Assembly: GCF_001742225.1 (NCBI RefSeq)
Contig: NZ_CP017076.1
Span: 1,389,001-1,453,000 of the forward strand
Reading direction: 5' to 3'
DNA length: 64,000 nucleotides
Origin: Novosphingobium resinovorum
GTDB taxonomy: Bacteria; Pseudomonadota; Alphaproteobacteria; Sphingomonadales; Sphingomonadaceae
A model generated the notes under the pieces. It made no database searches, had not been told where the DNA came from, and saw nothing but the letters and a program-made list of their open reading frames with translations. Positions 8,270-43,560 of this stretch are shown here, piece after piece; the stretch's first letter is position 1; the number at the start of each line of letters is the position of its first letter. Both the position numbers and the translations under genes were made by a program.

Positions 8270-11200
8270 TCAAGGCACGTTGTCGCGCAGCCGCATCCAG
8301 CCCGGCGCCTCGACACAGACCCCCGCGCCGACGGCGAGATTGTCCGCCGCGAGCCACTGGACCGTCTCGTCCTGAGGCTTGCCTTCGGAGACCACGCGGA
8401 TGCCGATGCGCGCCAGCGTGATGGCGTTGGCATTGGCGTGCAGGAACCGCCCGAGCCAGCCCCAGATACGGATGCCCTCGTGGAAGCGGCGGTCGTTGCC
8501 GGGGGCGAAGTCGATTTCGTTCTCGTTCACCCGCACCTGCGCGGCATTGCCCACGTAGATGCCGTGACCGCCCCACAAGTACTCGACCGGCAGGCGCAGC
8601 GCCATGCGGTTGGCGATGACGGCGACGCTGGCGAAGTCCCGGTGGTCCCCGGGGCCGTCGCCCTCGCGGGCCAGCGCGACATGGACGCCTTCGAGGAAGG
8701 CGGCGATGTCGTTGCGGGCGATGCGGGTTGTCCGGCCTTGACCACCGGCGACGACGATCGCCTGTCCGCCGACCACGCCGAGACCTTTGCGCAGTCGCTC
8801 GAACCACGCCGCGACGGCGGGGAACTTGGCGCGCAGGTCGGGATCGGCGACGAAGCGGCGGGTCAGGTCAGCAATAGCGTCCCAGGTGCGCTCCTCGGTT
8901 TCGGCCGTGATCTCCTGCGCGAATTCGCGGGCGATGCGAATCCAGGTTTCCTGATCGATCTCGGATTCGAAGGCGACGCGCCATTGCCCGGCAGGAATGG
9001 TGATCAGGCCCTTGCCATCTGTGGCAGCGGGTTTCGGGGCCTCGGCCACGGTCATCTCGCCGCCGCGGATGAGGTCGCCGAGCAGTTCGGGCGATAGCTG
9101 GATGCCGGTCTGTCGCCCCATGACCTTGCGCACCCGGTCGGCAGGCGCGCGGAAGGCGGACGTGGCGGACGTGTCCGCCAGAGCCTTGTCGGTCAGGCGG
9201 CGCATATAGGCCTGCACCGCGTCGGTGCTGGCCGTGTCGGCGGCGGCGGGCGGCTCGGCGGCGATCAGCTTGCGCCATTCGGGCGCCTCGACCATCGAGG
9301 CCATGCTCACCGCGTATGGCCCGACGAGGACCGCATTGCCCGGCACCGGCGTGCGCGTTTCGGCCGGGGTGAAGTCGCGGGCAAGGTGCCTTGCCAGCAT
9401 CCCGTGGCGACGCGGATCGGCGGCGAGTTCCTCCAGCGTGAACCGCTCGGGCAAGTGAGAGACGCGCAGGCGGTTGCCCTCGATAACGGAGTCGATGGCG
9501 TCGGTGACCAGCACGCCGTCCTGCCCGAAGCCGCAGGTGAAGGCGCAATCCACGATCCGCACGAAGCTGACCGGAACGGGCTTGCCGTCGCGCTGCGTGC
9601 CGGACACGGTCACGCAGGTCCGCTCGTTTCCGCGCGCGGTGCCGCACGTGACGGTCAGGTCCTCGAGCGTCACGGTATCGACCCCGATGGCGGTGATCGC
9701 GCCCCGGCGGCGGGGCTTGTGATCAAGTAGATCGGCGGTCGCGGCGACGGTCAGCTCGCGCATCGAGAGGCTGGCGCAGTCGATGAACTCCAGCACGCTC
9801 TCCCCTTCGCTGCACAGCACTTGGCTGGCCGCTCCACCGCCGTGGATGACGACGTGGCCGAGGCCGGTCAGGATCACCGGCTCCCTGGTCTCGAACCGGC
9901 CCTGCCGGAAGCAGATCGTCACGTCCTCGCCCTTGGGCAGTTCGCTCAGGGTCTTCACCCAGTCGGTGCCGGGCGAGAGCGTGACTTCCACGCAGCCGCC
10001 GCCGACGCGATTGGCCAGTTCCTCGATCGCACGCTGGACGGTGACGATCCCGGCGAGGCTGGGCGTGGCCGCCGGGTCGTAGGACACGCGCGCGGCGGTG
10101 GAGAGGCTGGCCCCGAAGGTGACGGCAAGGCCCACCCGCTCATCGGTGGAATCGATGAGTTCGGCACGGACCTGCTGGGTCGCGGTAGCGGCGTCGAGTG
10201 CCCAGGCGACGGTCGCCTCGCCCTTGTCGTCGGTGAGGGCGATGACGCTGGAGAAGCCGCTCGCGGGCGGGATGACGTTGAGCCCCCCGCTGCCCGACAG
10301 CACCGTGAAGCGCACGCGGGCATTCTGGACCGGCATGGTCCCGCGATACACGCCGACGCGCAGCAGGTCGGCGAGGGGACACAGGCGCATCGGCTGGGTC
10401 GGATCGGGCAGCGCCTCTTGCCCGTCGCCGCCGAGTAGCGCCAACTGCCGCATCCGGGTGAGCGGCGGGAACAGAGGGCGGCAGTCGCCCACGAAAGTCC
10501 ACGCGCCGCCGGTGCAGTCGAGCACGGCGAGGCGGGCATAGGCATGTTCGATGCCTTGCGGTGACTGCTGTGCGGGGGCGCCGCCGCTCTCGGGCCAGTC
10601 GATCCCGCTGCCGCTGCGGGCAGGGATCACCCACCAGTCGCCTGAGCGATAGGCGCCCCCGGCGAGGAAGGCGACCTCCAGCCCGCTCTCCAACGGTAGG
10701 AAACCGTCGTTGGTGCCGGGCACGGTGATGGCAACGGCACCGGGCGAATCCCACGCGCGGACCTTGGGATTGCGACCGAAGGAGCTGATCGCGATCGGCC
10801 CGTCGGCAGTCGGCGCGTCGAGCCGGACGCGGTTGCCGGTCAGGCTGACGATGCGCACCAGCGTTCCGGGGCGGCCGGCAAGTTCGGCGTCGTCGTCGGT
10901 CAGTTCGATCCACTGGCCGGGGCTCAGGCCGCTTACCGCGTCGCGGCCGGTCTCGGCGAGGGTCAGGGTATCGCCATTGCTTTCCAACCAGCGCGTGGCG
11001 AAGGCGGCATTGTCGCGCGACCATTTGAAGGTCGCCCCTCCGCCTGCCGTACCCGGCTTGTGAATCTCGACGCGGTAGAGGTGGTTTTCGAGCCGCTGAT
11101 AGCCTGCGGTCTCGGGAAAGGCGCAAGGGTTGGCCTCGGTGTCGGCGGGCTTGCCGCGCGCGGCGATCGTGCCGTTCGGGCGCTGGATGAAGGAGGTCCA

Positions 11201-11749
11201 CCCCGGCACCGCCGCGTCGCAGGTCACCGCGCCGTCGCCCGCATCGCCTGCCCGAAGGAAACCGACCTGCTCGACCACCTGCAGCCGCGTCGTGGTATCC
11301 ACGCCCAGCGATTCCTCGACGAGTTCATCGTCCTCGATCGCGGTGACGTGGCGGTGCCAGACGTCGACGAAGGCGATGTAGCGCCCGTCCGGCGGGCTGG
11401 CCGAGCGGCTGCCGTCCGCCGCGACGAAGACCGGCGCTCCGGCAGGCAGGAAGGGCTGCGCGTCGTGAAGGAACTTGCCGGGGTTCATGCAGCGCACGCC
11501 GTCGACGTAGAGCGTGCCCGCGCCGACCCCCAGCTTGCCTGCCGCCTCGACGGTGATCGCGAACCCGGCATCGCCCTGCGGCGCGCCGGATGGGCCGATT
11601 AGGTCTGCGGCGGTGCGCCTGTCGCGGTGGAGCTGGATCGCGCTGGCCTCGTTACTGTCGGCGTCGAGCGCGACGCGGCCCTGTTGCAGCAGGACGGCCT
11701 CGTACTGGCGGGCGGGATCGAACCGCAGCCGGGAAAAATCGCCTTTCAT
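8270..11749 (-). CDS. DUF6519 / right-handed beta-helix protein, last gene of the eCIS operon
   Basis: A 1,159-residue protein. The N-terminus (MKGDFSRLRFDPARQYEAVL) is typical of DUF6519 proteins linked to phage-tail-like clusters. About residues 590-760 show the short repeated strands of a right-handed parallel beta-helix (VVIHGGG, VTLEDLTVT), and a second helix-like stretch follows near 960-1110. Such folds occur in tail fibres, spikes and surface-binding proteins, so a role as fibre or target-binding appendage is inferred. The ATG at 11749 is used; an in-frame ATG at 11833 would lie inside the upstream gene. It follows the tail-protein-I-like gene by 19 bases. Confidence 0.7.
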   Translation of the reverse strand: MKGDFSRLRFDPARQYEAVLLQQGRVALDADSNEASAIQLHRDRRTAADLIGPSGAPQGDAGFAITVEAAGKLGVGAGTLYVDGVRCMNPGKFLHDAQPFLPAGAPVFVAADGSRSASPPDGRYIAFVDVWHRHVTAIEDDELVEESLGVDTTTRLQVVEQVGFLRAGDAGDGAVTCDAAVPGWTSFIQRPNGTIAARGKPADTEANPCAFPETAGYQRLENHLYRVEIHKPGTAGGGATFKWSRDNAAFATRWLESNGDTLTLAETGRDAVSGLSPGQWIELTDDDAELAGRPGTLVRIVSLTGNRVRLDAPTADGPIAISSFGRNPKVRAWDSPGAVAITVPGTNDGFLPLESGLEVAFLAGGAYRSGDWWVIPARSGSGIDWPESGGAPAQQSPQGIEHAYARLAVLDCTGGAWTFVGDCRPLFPPLTRMRQLALLGGDGQEALPDPTQPMRLCPLADLLRVGVYRGTMPVQNARVRFTVLSGSGGLNVIPPASGFSSVIALTDDKGEATVAWALDAATATQQVRAELIDSTDERVGLAVTFGASLSTAARVSYDPAATPSLAGIVTVQRAIEELANRVGGGCVEVTLSPGTDWVKTLSELPKGEDVTICFRQGRFETREPVILTGLGHVVIHGGGAASQVLCSEGESVLEFIDCASLSMRELTVAATADLLDHKPRRRGAITAIGVDTVTLEDLTVTCGTARGNERTCVTVSGTQRDGKPVPVSFVRIVDCAFTCGFGQDGVLVTDAIDSVIEGNRLRVSHLPERFTLEELAADPRRHGMLARHLARDFTPAETRTPVPGNAVLVGPYAVSMASMVEAPEWRKLIAAEPPAAADTASTDAVQAYMRRLTDKALADTSATSAFRAPADRVRKVMGRQTGIQLSPELLGDLIRGGEMTVAEAPKPAATDGKGLITIPAGQWRVAFESEIDQETWIRIAREFAQEITAETEERTWDAIADLTRRFVADPDLRAKFPAVAAWFERLRKGLGVVGGQAIVVAGGQGRTTRIARNDIAAFLEGVHVALAREGDGPGDHRDFASVAVIANRMALRLPVEYLWGGHGIYVGNAAQVRVNENEIDFAPGNDRRFHEGIRIWGWLGRFLHANANAITLARIGIRVVSEGKPQDETVQWLAADNLAVGAGVCVEAPGWMRLRDNVP

Positions 11750-11768
11750 TCGTCCTTCTCCTGCATGA

Positions 11769-13958
11769 TCAGCTGGCCGGCAGCAGTCCGGCTTCGAGGC
11801 CGAGGCCCAGGTATTCGTCGAGCGCGATGGCAAGGTTGGCGCGGCGCTGCGGCTCCTCGAGGAAGCGCCAGACCCCCATCGAACCGCCGTTCGCCGCGCC
11901 TTGCGTCAGCGCGGGATCGCTGCCCCACGAGAGGCGCGCGAAACCTGCAGCGCCCGGCTCCAGCGTTTCGAAGGCGAGGCCCAGACGCGCGGCGATGGCG
12001 GCCTGATCTGCGGCCGCGCCGGCTTCGCGAATGGCGAGGTCGGGCTGGCAGCGGAACTGGCGCGGGCCGGTGGAGCCGGGAGGCACCAGCGAGTAGCGCA
12101 GGCATCCCACCTGCCGCCGCGTCGCCGCGAGCGTGCGGGCGAAGATGCAGTCGCTGGCGGTGATCGAACGCACCTGTGTCTGGCCGAGAACGGTCGCTCC
12201 CGAGAGCACCGCGCGCGCGCCGGGCATGGTTGCAGGACCGAGCACCACGCTTTCCGTCACGTCCAGCCCCGGCACCGTCGCGGGCGCGGAAAGAGCGGGC
12301 AGGACGCTGCGGCGCAGGGTCACGTTCAGCCGGTCGTGGTCCCCGGCGATGGTGAGGCCGTCCGCGCCGAGCACGGTGCTGTTGGACACGACCAGTTCGC
12401 CGAGGTTCGCGGACCCGTCCGCCGCCACCCTGAGCGCGCCGCCGACCAGCAGGCCGTCGATCACCAGCGCGCCGGGATCGAGCGCATCGGCCGGAGCGGT
12501 CCCGGCGACGGCGATGTCGCCGGTCACGCAGGCGCGCCGGTCGCGGGCGGTGAGGGAGCCGGGACGAAGGTCGCTGCCGCCGCCCTCGCGCGGGGTTTCC
12601 GGCCAGTCGGCGCTGGCGAGGAGCAGCAGGCTGCCGCGGGGCAGGGCGATCGTGCGGGGGCCGGTCAGGTCTTCGTCGAAGCGGTCGTTGTCGAGCAGGA
12701 CGATGGCGCCCACTGTCCCGGCAGGCTGCGCGTTCCACAAGGCCACGGCCTCGGTCAAGCTGGCGAGCATGATTCCCGGAAGCGGAGCGCGGCGACGGCT
12801 GACGCCGACCTGCCAGGTGATCTCGCGCCCGCCGAGCAGCGTGGCGATTGCGGTGCTGCGATCGTAGGGGCCGCCGCCGAGGTCGCCCGGCGCCGCGAGG
12901 GCGTGCCTGACGTGGACGCCCGCAGGCTCCACGCCCTCGGGAAAGGCGATGCGGCCGCGCACCGGGTCGAAGGCGGCAGTGATGGCCCGGGTCACGGTGC
13001 TTCCCGTGGCATCAAGGTAGTCGAGCGTCGCAGGAGGTCGTCGCCATCCGCGCGCGTCGGCCACGTCATGCAGGTCCGCGCTGGCCAGTTCGGCGGAGGG
13101 GACCGCGACGAAGGCATCGCTTGTGCTGGCTTGCACCCAGAGTTGGACCGGCGGGCGATCGTCGAACCACAGCGGCGTGGGCGTGCGTCCCGCCGCCATG
13201 TCGGCGCGCATGGCTTCCAGTTCGAGATACAGCCTGCGCCGGTCGAGTAGAGTGGGCAGGTCGGCCTCGCCCGCCGGAACGTCGGCAGCAAGCGGGCTTG
13301 GCGGGTTCCACAAGGGCAGTTCCCGCCCCGCAGGATCGCAAAGGAAGCGCCCCGGTCCGGCAGGCGCGGCTTCCACGGCGGCAAGCGGGTAGACCTGCTG
13401 GCGCCACGCGAAGATGCCGATGTTCGGTACGTTGTAGCGGCCCCGCCCGCGCGCGATGGGCCGCGCGTCCAGCGTGTGCGGCAGCGCGTCGAAGGCGGTG
13501 TCGTGGCGCCGCATCCGCTCCGGTTCGCGCACCGTGGCGGTAGCGGGCGCGTCGAGGCGCAAGTGGCGCAGCGCCTGCGTGGTGGCGAGGCGGCGGAACA
13601 TCTCGGCCGGCACGGCGGGCCAGCCCGTCGTCGCGCGGGTCAGGGTGCCGATGATCCCCAGCGTGCCCTTGCGCCGCCGCAGGCCGACGGTCTGCGCCAC
13701 CCATGCACGCTTGGAGAAGTTCTCGGTCGGGGTCAGCGCCCGCACGGCGAGGAGGTCGGCGATGTAGGGCACCGCCCATTCGGGGCAGGTCTCGATGAAC
13801 CAGCTCTCGCTCAGTTCCTCGATGGCGCGGGCGACGCGGTCGGCCTCCCCGCCCATGATGTCGAACAGCGCGGTGACTGCTCCCCCGGCATTGAGGTCGG
13901 CCTCGCGCAGATAGGCGGGCAAGGCGGCGTATAGGCGATCTGCATCCATGCGCATCAT
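11769..13958 (-). CDS. phage tail protein I-like baseplate component (Cis12-like)
   Basis: A 729-residue protein. The first 110 residues (ALPAYLREAD, FIETCPEWAVPYIADLLAVR) match the tail protein I/Afp12-type N-terminus found in eCIS and phage baseplates. Residues from about 480 contain short repeated valine/glycine strands resembling a beta-helix, suggesting a baseplate-to-fibre connector. The ATG at 13958 overlaps the upstream stop by four bases (ATGA). Placed between the wedge proteins and the DUF6519 protein, it should sit at the outer baseplate. Confidence 0.75.
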   Translation of the reverse strand: MMRMDADRLYAALPAYLREADLNAGGAVTALFDIMGGEADRVARAIEELSESWFIETCPEWAVPYIADLLAVRALTPTENFSKRAWVAQTVGLRRRKGTLGIIGTLTRATTGWPAVPAEMFRRLATTQALRHLRLDAPATATVREPERMRRHDTAFDALPHTLDARPIARGRGRYNVPNIGIFAWRQQVYPLAAVEAAPAGPGRFLCDPAGRELPLWNPPSPLAADVPAGEADLPTLLDRRRLYLELEAMRADMAAGRTPTPLWFDDRPPVQLWVQASTSDAFVAVPSAELASADLHDVADARGWRRPPATLDYLDATGSTVTRAITAAFDPVRGRIAFPEGVEPAGVHVRHALAAPGDLGGGPYDRSTAIATLLGGREITWQVGVSRRRAPLPGIMLASLTEAVALWNAQPAGTVGAIVLLDNDRFDEDLTGPRTIALPRGSLLLLASADWPETPREGGGSDLRPGSLTARDRRACVTGDIAVAGTAPADALDPGALVIDGLLVGGALRVAADGSANLGELVVSNSTVLGADGLTIAGDHDRLNVTLRRSVLPALSAPATVPGLDVTESVVLGPATMPGARAVLSGATVLGQTQVRSITASDCIFARTLAATRRQVGCLRYSLVPPGSTGPRQFRCQPDLAIREAGAAADQAAIAARLGLAFETLEPGAAGFARLSWGSDPALTQGAANGGSMGVWRFLEEPQRRANLAIALDEYLGLGLEAGLLPAS

Positions 13959-16630
13959 TGCACCTGCGTCAGCTGGAGGGCGGCGGGATCGATCGTCAGC
14001 AGCTCCGCGCCCTGCCACCCGTTGCCGAGGCGCGCGGCGGTGGCCGCGGGAAGGACGGGGGCAACCGAGGCGGACTGGTCCTGCCGGTGGAAGCGGGTGA
14101 ACCGCGCGGCGGTCACGCCGTCGACCGCGTGCAGCACGGCGGAGACTTCGGCGAGGCTGGCGGGATGGGCGAAGGCGCGCGCCGCGAACCCGAAGACGGC
14201 CAGCAGCGCCTCGCGCGCGGCGGCCATGACCACGGCGGCGACCGCGTCGGCGGCAAGTACCAGCCCGGCGTGCAGGACAAATCGGCGCGATCGATAGGGG
14301 GCGAGCGCGATCGGCAGGCCGTGGCGTTGCCCGGCATAGTCCCCGCCGCTGCGCACGGCGGCGATCGACTGCTCCAGGTTGTCGAACAGGGCGTCGCCGG
14401 GCAGGGGGGCGCCGCCGCGCGTGTCGGCGATTGTCAGGACGACGGCGCGCAGCGTCCGGTCGCGTACAAGGGTGGCGTCGGCCTTGCCGATCCCGGCGAA
14501 CGTGCGCGCATAGTCCGCCGCGTCGGCGAGGCTGACTATGCGGGCCATCGTGCGCACGGTGCTCGGCGCATTGGCGCGTGCGGTGGCGAGGGTCTCGGGG
14601 TCTTCGGCGCCCGATGCAGGGAGCGGGTTGACCACGCCGGAGAGTCCGGCGGGCCGCTGCAGCGGCTGGCTCAGCTGCCCGGCCCTGAGCATCCCGACAA
14701 GGCCGGTGCCGATGCGGTAGCGGGCGATCAGGTTGCCCTTGCCGCTCGGCGGGCGCGCGCCGGTCACGCCGTCGCCGAACTGGATGGTGACGGTGCCGTC
14801 GTCGGCGGTGCGGGTGGTGAACACCCGGTCGCGCGGGCCCTTGCTGACGAAGTCCGCGACTTCGCGCCAGCGGGCGGGTCCGATGCGCAGTTCCAGCGTG
14901 CTCGCGCGGCCGAGCGGCGTGGGGGCCGATACCCAGGTCAGCGGCTTGCCAGGCAGCGCCACGGCCTGGAAGGCGAGCGTCGCATCGCCGTTGCCGATGG
15001 CGTCCTCGCGCGTTTCGCCGTGGCTGGCGGCGACGACGTTGGCGTTGATCCGCAGGCTGCGCGGGGTGAGCGGCGGGTCGATCTCGGCGGTGAAGGTCAG
15101 GCGGGTGGCGTCCCGTGCCGGGGGGGCGAGTTGCGGCGCGTCGCCGCCCGCCGCGACCGTGCCGATCTGAGCGATGGTGAGGATGCGCGCGGCCGCCGCG
15201 CCGCTCGCGGCCTCGGAGCCGGTCAGGGCGACGCGCTGGCCGACCGAAAGCCCGGCGACGCGGCGGCTCAGCGTCACGCTCTTGCCGCTGACGGCTTCGG
15301 TCACCGGCGTCATCGCCCAGCCGAGCAATTCGCTGACGCCGTGCACGGTGGTCGAGCGCGGCGAGAAGGCCGTCATCGCAGGGCCGCTCAGCTTCAGGCG
15401 GGTGACCTTGCCGGACATGCCGAAATCGCTGACGCTGATCTCGCTGGCTTCGGTGACCTTGTAGGTCTCCATAGTCGTCCCGGCGCGCAGCACGACCCAG
15501 CTTCCCGCCACGAAGCGTTCGTAGACCTGGTCGAGATCGACATAGTCGCGGGTGGCGGGGAACGGCGCATCGGCCCAGCTGGAACGCCTGCGCGCATAAA
15601 GGCCGGGCGCGAGCTTGCGGGTGGTGTCGAACTCGATGATCTCGCTGATGTCGTCCAGGATGCCGCCGTAGCCGATCGCGCTTACGGCGGTGTCGCCGAT
15701 GCCGCCCACGATGGCCCGCTTGATCGCCTTAGCCTCCAGCGCGGCTGCGGCGATCGGCAGGAATTCGCCGACGCGCAGGGCGAGGGGCAACGACTCCCAC
15801 GCGGGCGCATTGTGCCCGAACAGGCTGGCGCGCTGGCGCAGAGCGAAGACGCGGGGCGCCAGCTGCGGAATGGCAGCGGCGGTGCCGAGCGGTGCTTCGA
15901 GGACGACTTCGCTGCGTGCCGGGATCTGGTCGGCGGTGTCAGGAGGCACGTCGGTCACGCCCGCGACGCGGCGGGCCTGCCAGCGGGGGCTGGTGGTCGC
16001 GGTGTCCCGCTCGGAGCCGACGATTAGCACCATGTCGCCAGTGCGCAGCTGCGTGGGCGGCTGCAGCATGAGCCTGTCGTCCCCCGCCTTCGGTGCGACG
16101 TAGCGGACGCTTTCGGCGCGCAGGTCCTGCCAGTCCGGGCGGGCGTCCATGGCGGCGTCGGTCTCGAAGATCTGCGGCTTCTCGTCGGGGCCAGGGATGC
16201 TCATGATCCCGGACCCGGCGGGGAGCGAGACGATCTCCGGCGAGCCGGGAATGGTGTCGCAGGTCACCGCCAGCCAGGCCGAGGCGGAGACGCCGGGTGC
16301 GGGCGCATAGCCGATCAGCCGCGCCAGTTCGAGCACCGAACGCCGCTCGGTGGCGGGGTGCAGGAAACCTTCGTTGCCGATGCGCTCATTGTAGAAGGCG
16401 AGGATGTCGAGCGCAGTGGCCCAGCCGTCGAGCAGGGCGATGGCCGGGTCGGCGGGGTCGCGCGTGGTCAGCCGGGCGAGCGCCGGCGCCTTGTGCAGCC
16501 GGTCCAGCATCGCGCCGTTGAAGCCTGCGTGCGTGGCCAGTCGCCACGGGATCATGGCGAGGTTCGCAGCGGGCGTGTCCGGCTGCGTGTCTGCGCCACC
16601 GAAGCAGGCGCATTCGGGGTCAGTGGTCAT
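13955..16630 (-). CDS. putative baseplate assembly protein (gpJ/Afp11-like wedge), copy 2
   Basis: An 891-residue protein. The N-terminus (DPADPAIALLDGWATALDIL, FYNERIGNEGFL) is characteristic of the family annotated as putative baseplate assembly protein in tail-like clusters, with baseplate-J-like sequence in the C-terminal third (FVSKGPRDRVFTTRTADDG, IQFGDGVTGARPPSGKGN). These proteins form the wedge ring around the spike that triggers sheath contraction. It overlaps both neighbours by four bases. It is clearly a paralogue-like partner of the preceding gene, sharing the FGD(D/G) and NPLPA(S/Q)G(A/G) motifs. Confidence 0.85.
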   Translation of the reverse strand: MTTDPECACFGGADTQPDTPAANLAMIPWRLATHAGFNGAMLDRLHKAPALARLTTRDPADPAIALLDGWATALDILAFYNERIGNEGFLHPATERRSVLELARLIGYAPAPGVSASAWLAVTCDTIPGSPEIVSLPAGSGIMSIPGPDEKPQIFETDAAMDARPDWQDLRAESVRYVAPKAGDDRLMLQPPTQLRTGDMVLIVGSERDTATTSPRWQARRVAGVTDVPPDTADQIPARSEVVLEAPLGTAAAIPQLAPRVFALRQRASLFGHNAPAWESLPLALRVGEFLPIAAAALEAKAIKRAIVGGIGDTAVSAIGYGGILDDISEIIEFDTTRKLAPGLYARRRSSWADAPFPATRDYVDLDQVYERFVAGSWVVLRAGTTMETYKVTEASEISVSDFGMSGKVTRLKLSGPAMTAFSPRSTTVHGVSELLGWAMTPVTEAVSGKSVTLSRRVAGLSVGQRVALTGSEAASGAAAARILTIAQIGTVAAGGDAPQLAPPARDATRLTFTAEIDPPLTPRSLRINANVVAASHGETREDAIGNGDATLAFQAVALPGKPLTWVSAPTPLGRASTLELRIGPARWREVADFVSKGPRDRVFTTRTADDGTVTIQFGDGVTGARPPSGKGNLIARYRIGTGLVGMLRAGQLSQPLQRPAGLSGVVNPLPASGAEDPETLATARANAPSTVRTMARIVSLADAADYARTFAGIGKADATLVRDRTLRAVVLTIADTRGGAPLPGDALFDNLEQSIAAVRSGGDYAGQRHGLPIALAPYRSRRFVLHAGLVLAADAVAAVVMAAAREALLAVFGFAARAFAHPASLAEVSAVLHAVDGVTAARFTRFHRQDQSASVAPVLPAATAARLGNGWQGAELLTIDPAALQLTQVQ

Positions 16631-22478: not shown

Positions 22479-22494
22479 CGTCGCGCCTTTTGCT

Positions 22495-31106: not shown

Positions 31107-31339
31107 GGCGCGCGGCCTTGGCCCGCGATCCCCGCATGGACGCGGGCGGCGGCGGCGCGGCCGATGTCCTCGGGGCGGGGCCGGGCGGGAAGACGCGGCG
31201 GCGCTGCGGCGCGCGACAGGCCGCGCTGGCCGACGAGACGCTCCAGCTCGGAGGAAAAGGCCGCCCCGGCGCGCCCTGCCTCATCGGCGTCGAGACCGTG
31301 GAAGACCAACTGGCCGACCTCGATCGCCACGCGGCTCAC
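31103..31339 (-). CDS. small conserved-position eCIS protein, 78 residues
   Basis: A 78-residue protein starting with GTG that overlaps the ATPase stop (GTGA) and ending in an ATGA overlap with the giant gene. The first 40 residues (IEVGQLVFHGLDADEAGRAG, then FSSELERLVGQ) look amphipathic-helical; the rest is Pro/Arg/Ala-rich. Function unknown. Its exact fit between two coupled genes argues that it is real. It could be a chaperone or adaptor for the adjacent giant protein (inference). Confidence 0.65.
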   Translation of the reverse strand: MSRVAIEVGQLVFHGLDADEAGRAGAAFSSELERLVGQRGLSRAAAPPRLPARPRPEDIGRAAAARVHAGIAGQGRAP

Positions 31340-33258
31340 AGCCAGCCTCCCAGTTCGGCCGAAGTGACCGGGCGCTCCAGCTTGCGGCATTCGAGCACGG
31401 CGGCTTCGTGCAGGTGGCGCATCTCCACGGCACCCCCTTGCGCAGCGGCGAGGAACGCGGCGTTGACGGCGATGCTGCGGATGTTGCCGGGCGCGACGTT
31501 GAGGCGCGCGAGGCGCTCGAAGTCCAGCCCCTCGGTCGGCGTGGCTTGCGGGAAGGCGCGTTCCCAGACGGTCCGGCGCAGCGCTTCGTCCGGGAAGGGG
31601 AACGCCACCACGAAGCGCAGGCGGCGGAAGAACGCGGCATCCAGCGATTCGCGCTGGTTGGTGGTGAGGATGGCGAGGCCGGTGTAGCTCTCCATGCGCT
31701 GCAGGAGGTAGCTGACTTCGATGTTGGCGTAGCGGTCGTGCGCGTTGCCGACTTCGCTGCGTTTGCCGAACAGCGCGTCGGCCTCGTCGAACAGCAGCAC
31801 CGCGCCGCTGCCCTCGGCGGCGGCGAAGACGCGGGAGAGGTTCTTCTCGGTCTCGCCGATGTACTTGCTGACGACTCCCGCCAGATCGACGCGAACCACG
31901 TCGGTGCCGAGGTCGGCGGCGATGACTTCGGCGGCCATCGTCTTGCCGGTGCCGCTGGAGCCCGCGAACAGCGCCGCGATGCCAAGGCCGCGCCCGCCGC
32001 GCGCTCCGAAGCCCCAGTCCTCGTGGACGTGGCGGCGGTGGCGCACTTGCGCGGCGATGGCGTGCAGCGCGGTCTTGAGTTCCGCGGGAACGATGAGGTC
32101 GTCCCACGTGGCGACGGGGTGGATGACTTCGGCGATGGCGGCGATACGCGCCTGCGCATGGGCGCGGGCCTCGCGGTGGAGCAGGTCGCGCGCGGCTTCG
32201 CGGTCCAGTCCTTCGGCCAACGGGCCGAGGCGCGCGATGGCGGTCGGGCCGATGGCGAACTGGCTGGCCAGGGCTTCGCTCGCGCCGTTGAGCCTGGCGG
32301 TCTGAGCCTGCCCCAGCGCCCGGGTCCAGAGGGCATGGCGCTCGGGCGCTTCGGGCACTTGCAGTGTCGCGGAGACAAAGGGGCGGCGGCATGGCAGCGC
32401 CCCCGCGCCGCCGCTGACGATGATGCAATCGTCCAGTCGATCAACGAGATCGGCGGCGAGCGCCGCCTGTTCGGGGGCGATGTCTTCGGGCAGCTCGATC
32501 AGCAGCGCGAGGCCGCCCAGCAGCGCCTCTCGCCGCCACAGGGCTGCGAAACCGTGGCGCTCGGCGGGAGTGGGCGGTAGGTTCGCCGCGCCAAGAACAT
32601 GGAGGCGGCGCCCCAGCCGGGTCGCCGCAGTCTGGGCGATGAGCCGGGCGTCGGCGGGCTCGCCGTGATGCAGGTGGATCGCGGGTACCTCTCCGTCCGC
32701 GCGCATCGACCACCAGCGCTCGACCAGCCGCTCCGCCTGGGCGCGGCCGGAGGGGCCGATTTCCGCGCCCGCCGCCACCGGGCGGACGAGCGGGGCGAGG
32801 CGTTCGTCAAGCGCGTCCTCTCCCAGCAGCGCGAGGAGGATGCGTTCGTCGATCAGGAGTTCGGAAAGGGTCGGTCGGTCGGGATCGGCGAGGCGCAGGC
32901 ACCGCAACGCGCGCAGCGGGGCGTCGGGACGCAGCGCCGACCATGCCGCCTCCGGCAGTACCGCCATGGCGAGGGCGGCGGTGATGCGGCCTTGCGGGTC
33001 GCCGGTCACGGCGGCACAGAGCGCTACGGAGCGTGCACTCAAGTGCGGCAGAGCTGCCAGCAGCAGGCAATCACGGGCGAATGCGATGAGGCCAAGGCGC
33101 TCGGCGAGACGCCTTGCCGGCCCACCGGATTGGGCGGCCTCCTGCGCTGCGTGCAATGTCGCTTCGGCGGCCGCGATTTGCTCGCCTGTTCGCGCGGCGG
33201 CAAGCGCGAGGTGCGCTTCGATCACGGCGATCTCGCCGGCGAGAGACGGCGCGCTCAT
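31336..33258 (-). CDS. AAA+ ATPase of eCIS (Afp15/Pvc15-like)
   Basis: A 640-residue protein. A poorly conserved helical N-terminal half is followed by a single AAA+ module: Walker A GSSGTGKT at 433-440, Walker B VLLFDEAD at about 487-494, sensor-1 LTTNQRE and an arginine finger region FFRRLRF. This arrangement and length are typical of the ATPase carried by nearly all eCIS loci, thought to help assembly or cargo loading. It overlaps both neighbours by four bases. Confidence 0.9.
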   Translation of the reverse strand: MSAPSLAGEIAVIEAHLALAAARTGEQIAAAEATLHAAQEAAQSGGPARRLAERLGLIAFARDCLLLAALPHLSARSVALCAAVTGDPQGRITAALAMAVLPEAAWSALRPDAPLRALRCLRLADPDRPTLSELLIDERILLALLGEDALDERLAPLVRPVAAGAEIGPSGRAQAERLVERWWSMRADGEVPAIHLHHGEPADARLIAQTAATRLGRRLHVLGAANLPPTPAERHGFAALWRREALLGGLALLIELPEDIAPEQAALAADLVDRLDDCIIVSGGAGALPCRRPFVSATLQVPEAPERHALWTRALGQAQTARLNGASEALASQFAIGPTAIARLGPLAEGLDREAARDLLHREARAHAQARIAAIAEVIHPVATWDDLIVPAELKTALHAIAAQVRHRRHVHEDWGFGARGGRGLGIAALFAGSSGTGKTMAAEVIAADLGTDVVRVDLAGVVSKYIGETEKNLSRVFAAAEGSGAVLLFDEADALFGKRSEVGNAHDRYANIEVSYLLQRMESYTGLAILTTNQRESLDAAFFRRLRFVVAFPFPDEALRRTVWERAFPQATPTEGLDFERLARLNVAPGNIRSIAVNAAFLAAAQGGAVEMRHLHEAAVLECRKLERPVTSAELGGWL

Positions 33259-34559
33259 ATCGTCACCAGCGGGGTGGCGAAGCGGCCGTCGCCGCCGGGG
33301 GTGAGCAGGCTTTCGGCGCCGTCGATGCGCAGGCGCACGAGGTAGTCGCCGCGCGCGATGGCGCGATAGGGGATTGCGATCTGCGCAGCCTCGTCCACGC
33401 TTTCGGCTAGGCCATTGGCGGCGGGAGCGGCGATGGCATAGCCGCGTGGAGGCCGCGAGGCGGGCGCGCCGCGTTCGTTGAGCAGCACTTCGACCCGCTG
33501 GTCACGGCCGATGGCGCGGGCGGCGGTGACCGTCAGGGTGCCGTCGGCGTAAACGATGCCGTCGATGGTCCGCGTCGCGGAATTGGCGGCGGAGACGGTG
33601 TTCACCACCGGGCGCAGGATCAGCGCGGCAGCGTTGGAGAACACACCCTCGTGCGCGGTGGCCGGATCGCCCATCTGGCGCGGGTGGATGACGGTGACGC
33701 TCTGCACTCCGGCGCGCGGGCGAGGGGCGGCGGCAAGGTCCACATTCAGGATGTGGGCGCGGGAATCGGAGGCGGGCGCGTGGTCGGTGGCGCCGATGCG
33801 GACCACGGTGCCGCTGGCGGCGAGCAGGCGCAGGCCGGCGATCGCCAGCGTGTCCTCGGTGGTCACCGCCGCGCTCGGATCATCGGCGAGGCCGACCCGC
33901 GCGATCTCGGGCAGCGCCAGCGTCTCGCCGAAGACGGCGCGGGCAGTGGCGGGCAGGGCGGTGCGGCCCTTCGCGCGCGGATCGATGAGCACGACGCTCG
34001 CTTCGTAGGCGACGGTGGTGCGGTAATGCGCTTGGAATGCCGACCAGATCCGCGACATGTCCTCCAGCGCGACGGCGGTGGGGGTCAGCTTGACCAGTTC
34101 GATCTGGTCGGCGAGGCCGCAGTTCTCCAGCGCCGTGGCGAGCGGGCTCGCGGCCGTGGGCACCAGTGCGCGGCGTACCGCCTCGCGCGTCAGGACCGCG
34201 TTCTCGCCGAGGATGCGCAAGGTGTGGCCGAGCAGGACTTCGGCGACGAACATCTCCGCCGCGAAGGTCGTGACGAGGTAGTGCAGCGTGAACGCCAGCG
34301 GCGGTGCGGAGACGAGGTCGCCGCCGCTGTCGCGCCCAGGCAGCCCGAGATTGCGCCAGGCCGCGTTGGGCGTGACCTGATGGAGATAGAGGTTCACCCG
34401 CGTCGGCTCGGGCTGGCCGGGCTTGGCGACGAGGTCGGGCGGCCCGGCACTGACGCCGATGGTGCCGACCGCGTCGCCTGCCTTGTCGAGCGCAAGGCCC
34501 TCCACCACGAGCTGGCGCAGCACGGCGGTGACTCCGGCGATGGCGAAAGGCGTGCTCAT
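33255..34559 (-). CDS. DUF4255/Pvc16-N family tail terminator protein
   Basis: A 434-residue protein. The N-terminal ~190 residues match the DUF4255 (Pvc16 N-terminal) family: PFAIAGVTAVLRQLVVEGL and TRVNLYLHQVTPNAAWRNLG, LHYLVTTFAAEMFVAEVLLG. Family members cap the distal end of the sheath/tube. The C-terminal half contains two immunoglobulin-like stretches (about 240-340 and 345-430) that could decorate the cap. It overlaps both neighbours by four bases. Confidence 0.85.
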   Translation of the reverse strand: MSTPFAIAGVTAVLRQLVVEGLALDKAGDAVGTIGVSAGPPDLVAKPGQPEPTRVNLYLHQVTPNAAWRNLGLPGRDSGGDLVSAPPLAFTLHYLVTTFAAEMFVAEVLLGHTLRILGENAVLTREAVRRALVPTAASPLATALENCGLADQIELVKLTPTAVALEDMSRIWSAFQAHYRTTVAYEASVVLIDPRAKGRTALPATARAVFGETLALPEIARVGLADDPSAAVTTEDTLAIAGLRLLAASGTVVRIGATDHAPASDSRAHILNVDLAAAPRPRAGVQSVTVIHPRQMGDPATAHEGVFSNAAALILRPVVNTVSAANSATRTIDGIVYADGTLTVTAARAIGRDQRVEVLLNERGAPASRPPRGYAIAAPAANGLAESVDEAAQIAIPYRAIARGDYLVRLRIDGAESLLTPGGDGRFATPLVTI

Positions 34560-35392
34560 CGTGCGCGCTCCCCGCCCGAAAGGAACTCTGCGAGCGAGGG
34601 GCCGGGCGACGGCGCAGGCGAGGCGGGCTGGCGCCGTGCGGGCGGCGGAACGGGGGGCGGGGGCACCGCATGGACGTCTATGCGCTCGATCCGGATGACG
34701 ACCGGCGGCTCGCCTCGGGGCGCCGAAACGGAGCGTTGGCGAGGTTGCGGAGCGGCGGGCGTGGGCCGGGGTATCGCATGCGCGACCGGCCGAGGAGCGG
34801 GTTCAGCGCGGCGCGGCGGGGGTGCCTGAACGTCCGGGCCGGGCGTTGTGCCGGCGCGTGCGTGGACTTCGACGTGGCGCATGATCTCCTGCAGCACCGT
34901 GCGTTCGGAGATCTGGAGGTTCGGGGAGGGCGAGTTGGCCATGCGGCGGGGAGCCGGGCGGTCAGGCGCTTGGGCCGGGGGGGGCGTGAGCGCAGGCGTA
35001 TGGCCGGGATCGGCAGGGGGCTGCGGTATCGCAGGACGTTCGCCACTCGGTATCGCCGTCTGGATTGGCGGCACGGCCTGAGAACGGAAGCGCGGTTCCG
35101 GATTCTCAGCGGACGTAAGCACTTGCGTAACCTGCACCACCGAACCCTGCCGGATTGTCGGCGCGGCGGCGGGGGCCGTGGTGCCCGGGCGCGGCGCCGT
35201 GCTTTCCCTTGGGGCGGAGGGCGCGTCCATGACCGTGCGCGGTATAGGCTGCACGCTCCCGGCGATCGGCTGCGCCGGTTCCTCGAAGGCCATATCTTCC
35301 CCGCCGCCCTCGTAAAGCGTGCGCGGGCGCGGGGAGAGCAGCGCCACGCGGCCTGAGGCGCGGGCGGCGAGGGTGGCGAGATAGCGGCTCAC
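34556..35392 (-). CDS. proline-rich linker protein of the eCIS operon
   Basis: A 278-residue protein. A short N-terminal part (SRYLATLAARASGRVALLSP) is followed by about 220 residues rich in Pro, Ala, Arg and Gln, including PPPPVPPPARR, and one predicted helix near 145-165 (SERTVLQEIMRHVEVHARAG). It has GTG start overlapping the previous stop and an ATGA overlap downstream. Low-complexity sequence suggests a flexible connector or assembly scaffold. No family is recognised with confidence. Confidence 0.65.
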   Translation of the reverse strand: MSRYLATLAARASGRVALLSPRPRTLYEGGGEDMAFEEPAQPIAGSVQPIPRTVMDAPSAPRESTAPRPGTTAPAAAPTIRQGSVVQVTQVLTSAENPEPRFRSQAVPPIQTAIPSGERPAIPQPPADPGHTPALTPPPAQAPDRPAPRRMANSPSPNLQISERTVLQEIMRHVEVHARAGTTPGPDVQAPPPRRAEPAPRPVAHAIPRPTPAAPQPRQRSVSAPRGEPPVVIRIERIDVHAVPPPPVPPPARRQPASPAPSPGPSLAEFLSGGERAR

Positions 35393-36096
35393 GCTGCCAG
35401 CTCCAGATAGGCCGCGCGGCGCTGCGGGGTCATCGCCAGGATGTCCGCCTCTCGCCAGCCATAGGCACGGGCGAGCGCGGCGACTTCCGCCAGCAGCCGC
35501 CGCGCCTCGGCGGCGACCGAACGGGCGAAGTGATGCGCGGGATCGTGCAGCGCCGGAATGCTCGCGCCGCAATGGGGGCAGGCGACGAGCAGCGTGATCG
35601 CCGCCAGCGGATCGGCAGCTTCCAGCGCATCCTCGATCGCGGCGACAACTTCGGGCGGGAGGTTCGCGGGATCGGCGGGCGCACCATCGCGGGTGCAGAG
35701 CGTCACCACGCGGGCGAGGAGGGCGCGCTCGGCCGCTTCGGGCTCCTTCATCGCCAGCGCCGCCATGTCGTGGCTGTCGGCGGGGCGGGCCTCGATCCGC
35801 CATGCGCCGGACGTTATCGCGATCGGCGCGACCTCCTCCGGCGCCATCGCCAGCAGGCTGTCGGCATCGAGGGTGACTTCCGCCGTCTCGCCGCACTCTG
35901 CGCAGGGCACGGTCGCCTCGATGGCTGGGCCGAACAGCCGCCGCTGGTGCGCGATCAGCTTCCCGTCACGCGCGCCGACGGGAAGGCGTGCAAGGCCATC
36001 ATCCCCGGCACCGGGCTCGGCGGCCCGAAGCAGGGCAAGCGGGTTCGTGCCCGCCTCCCAAAGTGCGAGCAGTCCCTCGACCGGGTTCGTGGACAT
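35389..36096 (-). CDS. T4-baseplate-like zinc-binding protein
   Basis: A 235-residue protein with two CxxC pairs (Cys65/68 in CAECGE and Cys173/176 in CPHCGAS), likely one zinc site. The C-terminal AYGWREADILAMTPQRRAAYLE is characteristic of the T4 bacteriophage base plate protein family (Pfam T4_baseplate) found after the tube gene in eCIS. It lies four bases after the tube stop. Its exact structural role in eCIS is not settled. Confidence 0.8.
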   Translation of the reverse strand: MSTNPVEGLLALWEAGTNPLALLRAAEPGAGDDGLARLPVGARDGKLIAHQRRLFGPAIEATVPCAECGETAEVTLDADSLLAMAPEEVAPIAITSGAWRIEARPADSHDMAALAMKEPEAAERALLARVVTLCTRDGAPADPANLPPEVVAAIEDALEAADPLAAITLLVACPHCGASIPALHDPAHHFARSVAAEARRLLAEVAALARAYGWREADILAMTPQRRAAYLELAA

Positions 36097-36100
36097 GGCC

Positions 36101-36625
36101 TTACTGCGGTTCGACGAAGCTCGGTTCGGAAGGCTCGGTTACCGCGTAGTCGCGCTCCCAGCCTTCGTTCTCGATCTTGATGTGCTGGATGGCCACCGCG
36201 TTGGCGTTGGCGTCGAGGTCGGGCATCGACTGGAACTCGCTGATCCAGCAGCGGAACAGGCGATAGACGATCGCGGGTTGCCCTGCCTCGTTGTAGAGTT
36301 CGATGGTGATGTCCTTGCGGAAGTCGGCGAGCGAGACTTCGGCGCCGAGGGCGGAACCGAAGTTCCAGACCTTGTTGGCCCACCGCTCGAACTCGACGTC
36401 ATGGGTGACGCCGCGTTCGAGGGTGACGGCCTCGAACTCGCTGCGGCCGGGCGACTTGCGGCTGGAGGAGGGATCGCCCCCCTCGCGGTGTTTGACTACC
36501 TCGGTAGTGCGCTTGAGCGCGCTGACCTTGCTGACGCCCGCGACATAGCGGCCGTCCCACTTCACCCGGAACTTGAAGTTCTTGTACGGGTCGAAGCGCT
36601 GGGCGTTGACGTTGAACTGGGCCAT
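36101..36625 (-). CDS. inner tube protein (gp19/Hcp-like, Afp1/5 type)
   Basis: A 174-residue member of the conserved phage-tail-region protein family that forms the inner tube. Signature segments are FDPYKNFKFRVKWDGRYVAG (11-30), LKRTTEVVKHREGG (37-50) and FRCWISEFQSMPDLDANANA near the C-terminus. The start has a very strong ribosome site (GGGAGGAG). Only one tube gene is present, so tube rings are homopolymeric. Lies 22 bases after the sheath stop. Confidence 0.93.
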   Translation of the reverse strand: MAQFNVNAQRFDPYKNFKFRVKWDGRYVAGVSKVSALKRTTEVVKHREGGDPSSSRKSPGRSEFEAVTLERGVTHDVEFERWANKVWNFGSALGAEVSLADFRKDITIELYNEAGQPAIVYRLFRCWISEFQSMPDLDANANAVAIQHIKIENEGWERDYAVTEPSEPSFVEPQ

Positions 36626-36647
36626 CGGGCAACTCCTCCCTTGCCGA

Positions 36648-38636
36648 TTACGAAGCGGCCTGACCGGCCAGCTGCTGGATGCGGATCATGACGAATTCCG
36701 CGGGCTTGAGCGGCGCGAACCCGACAAGGATGTTGACGATGCCCCGGTCGATGTCGGCCTGCGTGGTCGTCTCCTTGTCGCACTTGACGAGGTAGGCGTC
36801 GCGCGGGGTCTGGCCCTGGAACGCGCCCTGGCGGAACAGGCCGTGCATGTAGGTGGTGAGGTTCAGCCGGATCTGCGCCCACAGCGGTTCGTCGTTGGGT
36901 TCGAAGACGACCCACTGGGTGCCCCGGAACAGGCTTTCCTCGATCATGAGGGCAAGGCGCCGGACGGGTACGTACTTCCACTGGCTCGCTTCCACATCGG
37001 AGCCGACGCGGGTGCGCGTCCCCCACGAGAGCGTGCCGTAGACCGGCAGCGCGCGGATGCAGTTGAGGCCCAGCGGGTTGAGCAGCCCGTTCTCGGAATC
37101 GGACAGCTTGTAGACGAGCCCGCGCACCCCGCGCAGCTGCGCATCGGTTCCGGCGGGGGCCTTCCACACGCCGCGCTCGGCGTCGGTGCGGGCATAGAGC
37201 CCGGCGATCGCGCCGGACGGGCCGAAGGTGCGCAGCTGGAAGTCGTTCAGCGGATCGGCCATGCGGACGCGCGGGAAATACGTGGCCGCGTTGGCGCCCT
37301 TGACGGTCAGGCCCGAGGAAATCCACTCGAACGCGCGGTCGACGGTGTTCACGGTCGGCGGCGGGTCGATCAGCAGGAAGGCGCGGCGCTTGGTGCAATA
37401 GTCGAGCGCGGCCTGATAGATGGCGTTCGGGTCCAGCCCGGTATCGAGCGCGTTGGGATCGCCGGGGCTGGCGCGCGTGGCGTCGGGCAGGACGAGGATG
37501 TTGAAGATGTCCGCCTTTTCAAGCGCATGGATGCCGGTGAAGGCGGACGGACTGCCGATCACGTCGGCGCTCTGCGGCAGCTGGGTGCCGTCGGCGCCGG
37601 GGACGGGGTTGCGCTGGGCGGCTTCGGCCGTGCCGGTGCCGAGGCGGTAGCGACCGACGTTGAAGTTCGCCGCAGGCAGCTTGAGCATAGCGAGGGCGCC
37701 TGCCGGGGCGCTGTCCGCCAGCGAAAGCGTGGTGTCCACGGCGGCGGGGAGCAAAGCCGGGTCGAACATCGGGGCGATGCGCAAGGCCTTGCCCGATCCG
37801 GTGACGCCGACGGCGACGGCCGCGCCGGGCAGTGCGGCGGCCAGCGCCTGGTTGAAGCGCCGCTCCAGCAGCCGGGCCAGCGCCACGACCGAGGTGGGCA
37901 GTGTCTCGGCCTGCTTGATCAGCGTGACTTCGAGCGCGGTGACGGGGCCGCTGGGCCGGTTGGCGGTGACCCGGACCTTGTACGCCTTGTCGTTGGCGAG
38001 GCCGGTGATCCCGGTGGAGGTGACGGCGAAGTCGGTGCCGACGATCCCGCTCTCGGCCGGGCGCGCGCCGGGGCTCGCGGCGGGGACTTTCGCCGTGGCG
38101 AGGCGCGAGCCGTTGGCCGGGTCGTTGAGCACCGCCTCCACGAAGCGGGGCGAGGCGGTCGATACGCTGAGGTCTGCCCAGCGCTCGACGGCGCCGCTGC
38201 CGAGATCGGTCAGGGTGAGGTTGAAGTTGCTGGCCGATGCCCCGTCGTAATCGACGTCGGCGACGATCCCGTTGCCCCAGTCGCCCTTGCTGGTCGCGGT
38301 GAGGGTGAAGCTGACCTTGGCGGCGTTGGCGACGCCTTCCTTGAGGTTGACCTGCGCGGCGACCCCGTCGCTCTTGGGCACGCGCACGACGATCGCCTGG
38401 CCGCCGCCGTTCTGGAAGAACTGCTGGACCGAATAGCTCAGCTCGCTGTTGGCGGCGAGGCCGCCGAATTCGCGCTCGTAGTCGGCGTAGCTGAAGATCG
38501 TCGTCGCCCGGTTGTCGAGCCCGCGCGCGGTATAGCCGACGAAGGCGGCGATCGCGGTGGGTACGCCGGCCAGCGGACGCACGCCGCTGCCCAGTTCCTC
38601 GACGTAGACGCCGGGATAGGTCGGTACGATAGGCAT
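36648..38636 (-). CDS. contractile tail sheath protein
   Basis: A 662-residue sheath protein and the first gene of the operon. The N-terminus PTYPGVYVEELGSGVRPLAG (4-23) and the C-terminal YLVKCDKETTTQADIDRGIV plus FAPLKPAEFVMIRIQQ are classic sheath motifs that make the handshake between subunits. The ATG at 38636 follows GGGGGAGGAGG; the ATG nine codons earlier is rejected. A single sheath gene replaces the three of Afp/PVC. The middle 350 residues are long and carry an inserted domain probably exposed on the outside. Confidence 0.95.
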   Translation of the reverse strand: MPIVPTYPGVYVEELGSGVRPLAGVPTAIAAFVGYTARGLDNRATTIFSYADYEREFGGLAANSELSYSVQQFFQNGGGQAIVVRVPKSDGVAAQVNLKEGVANAAKVSFTLTATSKGDWGNGIVADVDYDGASASNFNLTLTDLGSGAVERWADLSVSTASPRFVEAVLNDPANGSRLATAKVPAASPGARPAESGIVGTDFAVTSTGITGLANDKAYKVRVTANRPSGPVTALEVTLIKQAETLPTSVVALARLLERRFNQALAAALPGAAVAVGVTGSGKALRIAPMFDPALLPAAVDTTLSLADSAPAGALAMLKLPAANFNVGRYRLGTGTAEAAQRNPVPGADGTQLPQSADVIGSPSAFTGIHALEKADIFNILVLPDATRASPGDPNALDTGLDPNAIYQAALDYCTKRRAFLLIDPPPTVNTVDRAFEWISSGLTVKGANAATYFPRVRMADPLNDFQLRTFGPSGAIAGLYARTDAERGVWKAPAGTDAQLRGVRGLVYKLSDSENGLLNPLGLNCIRALPVYGTLSWGTRTRVGSDVEASQWKYVPVRRLALMIEESLFRGTQWVVFEPNDEPLWAQIRLNLTTYMHGLFRQGAFQGQTPRDAYLVKCDKETTTQADIDRGIVNILVGFAPLKPAEFVMIRIQQLAGQAAS

Positions 38637-42663: not shown

Positions 42664-42696
42664 GGCACGGGAGCCCGTCTCCTGCCGGTTCTCGTC

Positions 42697-42737
42697 GCAC
42701 GGACATCAGTTGGGCCCCGCCTCCGCGGGGATGACGA
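42697..42737. repeat. half copy of the 7086-7126 repeat
   Basis: These 41 bases match 7086-7126 at 37 positions (GCACGG.CATCAG..GGG.CC pattern, then GCGGGGATGACGA). Here only the one arm is present, with its own small CCCCGCC/GGCGGGG-type hairpin (CCCCGCCTCCGCGGGG). It lies between convergent genes and could act as a terminator. Confidence 0.55.
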
Positions 42738-43552: not shown

Positions 43553-43560
43553 TGGCTACC

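Follow-up and report, generated by a model that had tools for sequence, protein, structure and literature searches.

The stretch of DNA analysed here (the window) comprises 64,000 nucleotides from Novosphingobium resinovorum (assembly GCF_001742225.1, contig NZ_CP017076.1, positions 1,389,001 to 1,453,000), in a genome of 6.92 Mb in five contigs. Nineteen open reading frames (ORFs; g1 to g19) run on the - strand from 38636 down to 8270, all present and uninterrupted, and 14 of the 18 junctions between them overlap, from which we infer that the operon is translated as a unit. Judged by its protein families, the operon is a complete extracellular contractile injection system (eCIS) of the published Tail_P2_I/DUF6519 ("eBAP5") type. 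The injector itself is therefore not new; the new part is the cargo slot, occupied by a giant protein, g8, and its partner, g9. An earlier note, made from the letters alone, had described a complete 19-gene contractile injection operon with this number of overlaps, and the intact ORFs, the family matches that cover the machine and the junction sequences bear it out. The note had the machine right but did not single out g8-g9, where the novelty lies.

The operon proteins were searched against Pfam, PHROGs, NCBIfam and the Protein Data Bank (PDB), with g4 not in the NCBIfam set. The general eCIS core set, as listed in PMC8213781, consists of tube, sheath, spike, PAAR, gp25, baseplate J, DUF4255/Pvc16 cap, AAA ATPase and DUF4157, and all of these were matched in the operon, PAAR and Phage_sheath_1 below the Pfam cut-off. 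The tail sheath g1 (36648..38636; 662 amino acids (aa)) is also supported by PF17482 (2e-11) and phrog_23 (2.5e-55), and its best solved relatives are 8bky and 8bl4, which we take to be the Streptomyces coelicolor contractile injection system (CIS). Next to it lie the tail tube g2 (36101..36625; 174 aa; PF06841, 8e-46) and g3 (35389..36096; 235 aa), a T4-type baseplate-hub assembly protein by weak matches to PF12322 (T4_baseplate; 0.0018, below cut-off) and phrog_150 (4e-4), which carries two Cys-x-x-Cys pairs. Beyond g4, the tube cap or terminator g5 (33255..34559; 434 aa; Pvc16_N, 1.3e-39) is followed by g6 (31336..33258; 640 aa), an AAA+ ATPase with a winged helix that is Pvc15-like by position (PF00004, 6e-24; PF22977, 2e-9).

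On the other side of the cargo slot, the tube initiator g10 (21822..22478; 218 aa; CIS_tube, 1.4e-6), whose profile found nothing worth following in the PDB, leads into g11 (21457..21825; 122 aa), a small baseplate protein with a weak match to the baseplate wedge phrog_1269 (4e-4). The hub g12 (20283..21464; 393 aa), the spike g13 with its OB domain (19771..20286; 171 aa; Phage_base_V, 1e-20) and the PAAR-like tip g14 (19427..19771; 114 aa; PAAR_motif, 1e-4) come next. Searches of Pfam, PHROGs, NCBIfam and the PDB gave g12 no match of its own, and it was assigned as hub from its position and from a tblastn match (26% over 379 aa) somewhere in the Streptomyces anthocyanicus locus, in which the gene ahead of the spike carries the annotation VgrG/Pvc8. 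Wedge proteins follow: the gp25 protein g15 (19044..19430; 128 aa; GPW_gp25, 3e-13), the baseplate J protein g16 (16627..19047; 806 aa; Baseplate_J, 4e-8) and a second baseplate J-type protein, g17 (13955..16630; 891 aa), with matches to TIGR02243 (6e-55, over the cut-off), phrog_219, phrog_6 and PDB 9gtp chain 1K, a baseplate J protein (1e-6). The operon ends with the Tail_P2_I adaptor g18 (11769..13955; 728 aa; PF09684, 1e-4, 22.5 bits against a cut-off of 20.6), which has a long C-terminal extension, and the DUF6519 tail fibre g19 (8270..11749; 1159 aa; PF20129, 1.1e-60), which has long relatives in plasmids of Rhizobiaceae (Ensifer and Ciceribacter), with matches at 32-34% identity that span 95-99% of the protein. 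PDB searches with g9, g12, g18 and g19 returned nothing to pursue (best E 0.02, for g19).

The operon is intact and constrained within Novosphingobium. N. resinovorum VKM B-1172 carries all 19 genes in the same genomic place at 93-100% aa identity, with a synonymous divergence (dS) of merely 0.01-0.10 and ratios of nonsynonymous to synonymous divergence (dN/dS) of 0.00-0.85, of which the values of 0.66-0.85 for g3, g4, g14 and g15 reflect too few changes for judgement. Novosphingobium sp. CF614 has all 19 genes in the same order with dN/dS of 0.00-0.37 by our own counting script, the alignable residues being only 51 of 278 in g4 and 60 of 78 in g7. Identity to CF614 is highest in the tube (100%), spike (95%), hub (92%) and sheath (90%) and lower in g8 (70%), g9 (69%), the fibre (71%) and g3 (66%). 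These two genomes are also the closest named records for g10 (99% and 86%). The operon has a GC content of 71.3%, against 67.5% and 66.8% in its flanks, and a promoter scan before g1 gave a single weak site, with 0.5 expected by chance, which was not used.

The ATPase has a companion in g7 (31103..31339; 78 aa), a small conserved protein with positional counterparts of 82-92 aa in three other loci, weak tblastn matches in four loci outside Novosphingobium and no family match in Pfam, PHROGs or NCBIfam; it is possibly a cargo adaptor. The slot between these two genes and the initiator holds the giant putative cargo g8 (23853..31106; 2417 aa), which has an N-terminal eCIS_core domain (1.6e-9) and an HExxH motif at residue 82, and the putative cargo partner g9 (22495..23856; 453 aa; eCIS_core, 7e-16). 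The family of g8 has nine members of 2376-2598 aa, spread over Pseudomonadota, Acidobacteriota and Actinomycetota: those of the window, N. resinovorum and CF614, and those of Aquincola tertiaricarbonis (locus L070), a Pelagibius metagenome-assembled genome (MAG; L081), a Bryobacteraceae MAG (L115), Roseococcus (L116), a Bryobacterales MAG (L117) and S. anthocyanicus (L128). All nine can be aligned over their full length, at 19-27% identity for the distant members, 37% between L116 and L117 and 71% for CF614, with 47 invariant columns that include the HExxH motif. The gene is rare: g8 was found in 3 of 149 genomes of the genus and, among 289 genomes of the class and 398 of the phylum, in its own genome only.

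Beyond the shared eCIS_core, which is present in all nine members, g8 holds no recognised domain. The only other Pfam family found in more than one member is a weak Peptidase_M78 (three members); no nuclease family, EndA-type included, was found in any of the nine at E<=1, the g8 profile had no relative in the PDB (best E 0.09), and sequence-level searches gave no PHROG match and no phage match among 50,697 records at E<=0.01. Hydropathy averaged over 19 residues peaks at 1.36, with no segment above 1.8 and hence no transmembrane (TM)-like segment; one of the seven slot relatives (L081) has a single such segment. By a crude averaging of propensities, g8 leans helical over approximately residues 1-800 and comes near balance from about residue 1300. 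Its profile aligns with itself in several registers, yet the C-terminal half shows no period above shuffled controls that would mark a regular coil length, and no stretch is conserved enough for a search of viral contigs. In S. anthocyanicus the g8 relative (26958-34328 of L128; 2456 aa) closes the operon, behind the gene for the DUF6519 fibre, and nothing but a g7-sized gene occupies the usual slot.

The partner g9 consists of the eCIS_core, an OmpA-like part and a C-terminal domain of about 105 aa, and the same three parts are seen in the alignment of five copies. In each of the seven loci that carry g8 in the slot, the C-terminal domain comes directly after it, and among the other 78 of the 85 loci searched the domain was found once (L091); L128, with g8 as last gene, is among the loci that lack it. 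In L116 and L117 the gene after g8 is only 206-210 aa long and carries the C-terminal domain behind nothing but a Pro-rich start. Taken together, g8-g9 looks like a two-part injected cargo with a presumed activity and target. Counting against this assignment are that the model of the C-terminal domain was built from the window and six of the seven loci counted, that some of the other 78 loci are partial, and that the OmpA match of g9 (4e-5) falls below the Pfam cut-off. Because of the first of these points, the strength of the pairing lies in its position and in the near absence of the domain elsewhere.

To view the slot across the lineage, we used a locus set of 80 loci kept from at least 565 relatives, in which gene order was not inspected locus by locus; slot ORFs could be listed in 72 of these 80 loci. 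Between one and five ORFs with HExxH occur in the slots of 66 of the 72 loci and none in the other six, and the summed slot length ranges from 306 to 3078 aa. The 109 HExxH ORFs have a median length of 610 aa, and all seven that exceed 2000 aa are relatives of g8; the HExxH rule is a simple pattern, open to chance matches, and it overlooked at least one gene, the copy of g9 in L049. A Cupriavidus plasmid outside this set has an unrelated slot ORF of 2225 aa. Ten slot proteins chosen for a family scan all carry eCIS_core, and three carry a further family: Aspzincin_M35 (L073), LysM (L120) and Tlde1_dom (L045, just below cut-off). Such variability on a shared machine is, in these sequences, the behaviour of an effector slot, and the comparison gives a simple way to locate cargo genes across hundreds of these loci. 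The six HExxH-free slots (L058, L069, L080, L098, L099 and L101) all belong to Bacteroidota by record title and have the same backbone; their cargo may be encoded elsewhere. A peptidoglycan hydrolase guessed by eye in a Rhizobium slot protein found no support in Pfam and was not used.

The three loci outside Novosphingobium that carry both g8 and a full-length g9 (L070, L081 and L115) have PAAR proteins 61-65% and hubs 44-48% identical to those of the window, and none of the other non-Novosphingobium loci reaches the lowest of the three for PAAR (0/74) or hub (0/73). The same threshold is reached far more often for other parts (initiator 37/74, g11 55/67, spike 21/74, gp25 56/74, g16 37/74), and L070 alone is also top for initiator and spike. 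In a permutation analysis of 57 loci, cargo and PAAR were correlated (r=0.19; 0/1000 permutations), and nothing was seen between cargo and initiator, hub, spike, gp25 or g16; with stricter thinning to 32 loci, r was 0.185 (2/1000). A first version with 500 permutations had given counts of 0 for PAAR, 7 for g10, 12 for g12, 24 for g11, 33 for g16, 77 for g15 and 351 for g13.

Without the g8-type loci the PAAR correlation drops to r=0.07 (133/1000), or 0.085 (169/1000) in the thinned set, and the hub reaches only r=0.05 (144/1000) in the 57 loci. The association is thus not general; a rule that cargo and PAAR co-vary was dropped once the g8-type loci were removed, and we limit the claim to g8-g9 for that reason. 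In the backbone tree, moreover, the window group and L070, L081 and L115 occupy adjacent, weakly supported deep branches, which makes shared descent a live alternative; one Streptomyces locus without g8 is placed among these branches, and L116 and L117 are placed elsewhere. With that alternative in mind, we take the closeness of PAAR and hub as a sign that the g8-g9 pair and its tip fit each other specifically.

We compared the operon with known systems. The eBAP5 type shares the DUF6519 fibre downstream of a Tail_P2_I gene and of baseplate J/gp25, and its authors describe ends of the pectin-lyase type and, in Rhizobium grahamii, a 'mega pectin lyase' fibre (PMC12923769). According to the same authors these types largely lack Afp12 homologues; the operon has two baseplate-J-type proteins, g16 and g17, either of which may correspond to Afp11 or Afp12. 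The terms 'Sphingo' and 'Alphaproteobacteria' are absent from the main text of that paper. The Streptomyces davawensis group, which spans Proteobacteria, Chloroflexota and Actinobacteria and includes one cluster on a plasmid, has as its largest ORF a protein with N-terminal DUF4157 that, by the authors' description, lies before the initiator and spike, as g8 does (PMC11126660). In contrast to that protein, g8 lacks predicted TM helices, an EndA-type nuclease domain was not found in it, and a second DUF4157 protein follows. The Sle1/Sle2 pair of S. lividans SLP is likewise a two-gene cargo with a DUF4157 partner, as g8-g9 is; Sle1, however, is described as coiled-coil/alpha-helical, without DUF4157 and encoded upstream of the sheath (PMC13277306), whereas g8 itself bears an eCIS_core and is encoded between the ATPase and the initiator.

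The CIS on the Streptomyces sp. NBC_00299 plasmid (NZ_CP108040.1) follows the operon gene for gene from sheath to DUF6519 with one slot gene instead of two, at identities of 41% (sheath), 76% (tube), 41% (g16) and 47% (spike). By tblastn, g8 did not match the 1164-aa slot protein of this plasmid, and the only match in the slot concerns the eCIS_core portion of g9. Match coordinates in three further plasmid records follow the order of the operon, and g10 is 34-47% identical to its counterparts in four plasmid records. Sheath, tube, initiator, spike, gp25, cap and AAA ATPase belong to the same families in Afp and PVC, of which the sheath-type chains Pvc2-4 and Afp2-4 match g1. Against the gene layout of Afp and PVC, the operon differs in having one sheath gene, one tube gene, DUF6519 with Tail_P2_I, and a putative cargo inside the operon. 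The open literature (subscription papers and preprints uncovered) yielded no description of a CIS in Novosphingobium or Sphingomonas, or of OmpA with DUF4157 in a CIS. Novosphingobium is a Gram-negative genus in which culture and genetics are practicable, and a complete DUF6519/Tail_P2_I injector is now placed in it. The functional work on such systems in the papers cited is on Streptomyces (PMC11126660, PMC13277306).

The operon with its families and conservation, the variable content of the slot, the C-terminal domain of g9 as a companion of g8, and a PAAR and hub that are close to those of the window in three loci with the same pair are observed; the loading route, injection, target and activity of g8 are what we infer. 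In the producer, the eCIS_core domains together with g7 and the ATPase would bring g8-g9, which the slot encodes, to the hub/PAAR end and load the pair into the tube, a route drawn from work on DUF4157 proteins (PMC11126660, PMC13277306, PMC11297309): the DUF4157 effector of S. davawensis co-elutes with spike and initiator (PMC11126660), and Sle2, a DUF4157 protein, interacts with the effector Sle1 and was examined in a binding assay with the spike complex (PMC13277306). The fibre g19, held by the adaptor g18, would bind the target surface, the baseplate (g15-g17) would switch, the sheath would contract, and the tube, tipped by hub, spike and PAAR (g12-g14), would be driven through the target envelope, steps that the known families lead one to expect. 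On firing, the g8-g9 pair would be released. The envelope of competing bacteria is the likeliest target because of the OmpA-like domain of g9, which is of the peptidoglycan-binding type, and because of slot relatives that look directed at the cell wall. Injection of g8-g9 into a target envelope, most likely that of competing bacteria, is in our judgement probably correct and explains the whole best.

Other accounts of the operon and its cargo were weighed. Its parts are related to those of contractile phage tails, and phage sheaths can be aligned with g1, as expected of a prophage or its remnant. However, none of the 667 phage records with sheath matches covers 80% of the query; no capsid, portal, terminase, integrase or lysis family was found in the operon or in 20 scanned flank ORFs; and the Pvc16 cap and eCIS_core are markers of eCIS. 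In the sheath tree, the window and CF614 group with the sheaths of 30 eCIS loci (those of 47 with a sheath ORF >=400 aa) apart from six phage sheaths, with a support of 0.90. Sheath coverage, sheath tree and the lack of a phage match to g8 led us to reject a phage relation, and an origin as prophage or remnant is very improbable. A type VI secretion system (T6SS) has the sheath, tube, spike, PAAR and gp25 logic in common with the operon, but IcmF (PF06761), the sole T6SS membrane marker sought, has no match in the whole genome, on which ground this reading was dropped, and Pvc16 cap, eCIS_core and DUF6519 are present; we give it next to no credence. The earlier note had reported the absence of phage head, packaging, integrase and lysis genes and of T6SS membrane genes, and had concluded that this was no prophage remnant. 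The scanned ORFs, including the flanks checked for capsid and terminase, confirm the former, IcmF confirms the absence of T6SS membrane genes as far as that marker goes, and the sheath phylogeny, the missing head genes and the constraint against CF614 uphold the conclusion.

A nearer contender is that g8 is not free-standing cargo but a tape measure setting tube length, or an effector derived from one, as Tme is described to be. Like Tme, it is the largest ORF and lies near baseplate genes (PMC11126660); Pfam and PHROGs recognise no other tape-measure gene in the operon, and its length is nearly constant over nine members. Against this, g8 matches neither phage records nor PHROGs at the level of sequence, and Tme has multiple predicted TM helices and a nuclease end, neither of which the g8 sequences appear to offer. 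As slot ORFs start from 306 aa and are missing in 6 of 72 loci, the slot does not hold an obligate ruler in this lineage, and we think the tape-measure account unlikely. The particle might instead stay in or on the producer envelope and act on the producer, as the CIS of S. davawensis and S. lividans do. The gene order resembles the S. davawensis group, as far as the authors' description goes, no lysis family occurs in the operon or the scanned flank ORFs, and the OmpA-like domain could tie g9 to peptidoglycan; that the S. davawensis CIS acts on its own producer (PMC11126660) weighs against delivery to competitors. A long DUF6519 fibre with a Tail_P2_I adaptor, on the other hand, is interpreted as a set of target-binding parts in PMC12923769, and the fibre is among the faster evolving genes (71% identity, dN/dS 0.34 against CF614), as expected of such a part. 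Action on the producer therefore seems to us rather improbable, though well worth keeping in view.

Under the preferred account, injection of g8-g9 by the eCIS, the pair would be a testable case of how a giant protein docks to and is delivered by a contractile tail through its link with PAAR and hub. A bolder proposal is that g8-g9 represents an unrecognised class: a giant, TM-free cargo of ~2,400 aa with a repetitive and strand-leaning C-terminal half and a small partner domain, matched to a particular PAAR/hub tip, with tip and cargo travelling together between phyla. We offer this tentatively, as a real possibility that we lean somewhat against. If true, g8-g9 would be a third type of CIS cargo alongside Sle1/Sle2 and the nuclease-type Tme, and might pass through the tube as a thread and refold once delivered into the target envelope.

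In the window the operon lies between catabolic genes and a luciferase-like monooxygenase; in CF614 it lies between an aldolase/aminotransferase/flagellar block and ruvBA, and homology between the two ends at both operon boundaries. The unrelated sites in the window and N. resinovorum VKM B-1172 as against CF614 indicate that the operon moved, or was gained separately, within the genus, and together with the recurrence of the gene set on plasmids and in loci whose record titles span more than ten phyla, Methanosaeta included, they argue that it has moved. The description as a stable chromosomal device in the earlier note therefore holds as regards an intact, constrained operon, and fails as regards location. 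An empty insertion site could not be demonstrated among 149 genus genomes, since the right-hand neighbour has a close orthologue (99%) only in one of them, the N. resinovorum genome G029, the next being at most 47% among the matches listed. In the genome of the window the tube family PF06841 has one match (g2), the sheath family PF04984 one (below cut-off) and eCIS_core two, all in the operon. The general eCIS marker Pvc16_N was matched in 12 of the 149 genomes searched in the genus and in 29 of the 397 in the family, not all of which resemble this lineage. In the backbone tree a locus from a MAG labelled Williamsia (L055) falls among Bacteroidota loci, a hint of mis-binning or transfer.

The remaining protein, g4 (34556..35392; 278 aa), is Pro-rich and has no family match in the Pfam and PHROGs searches, and it has positional counterparts in other loci. 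Read by eye, these share, in many phyla, a variable N-terminal motif of approximately M-S-x-F-L-x-x-L-A-x-R ... P-R-x-x-S-L-F-E, so that g4 seems to belong to a family, found in loci among L044-L127, that combines this conserved start with a tail that is rich in Pro and probably disordered. Among phage loci (L168, L170 and L167), Bacillus phage SP-15 and Streptomyces phage BRock have an order of sheath, tube and baseplate(-hub) like that of g1-g3, and phage pSt2308 has sheath and tube in this order with a third gene that is merely hypothetical; this order is possibly a trace of the phage lineage behind this CIS type. Elsewhere in the window, an 8.25-kb block at 42657-50907 (DeoR, RhaT, an FMN-dependent dehydrogenase, an FGGY kinase, an aldolase/short-chain dehydrogenase and a xylose-isomerase-like protein) is absent between the same neighbours in N. 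resinovorum VKM B-1172, and probably serves L-rhamnose use.

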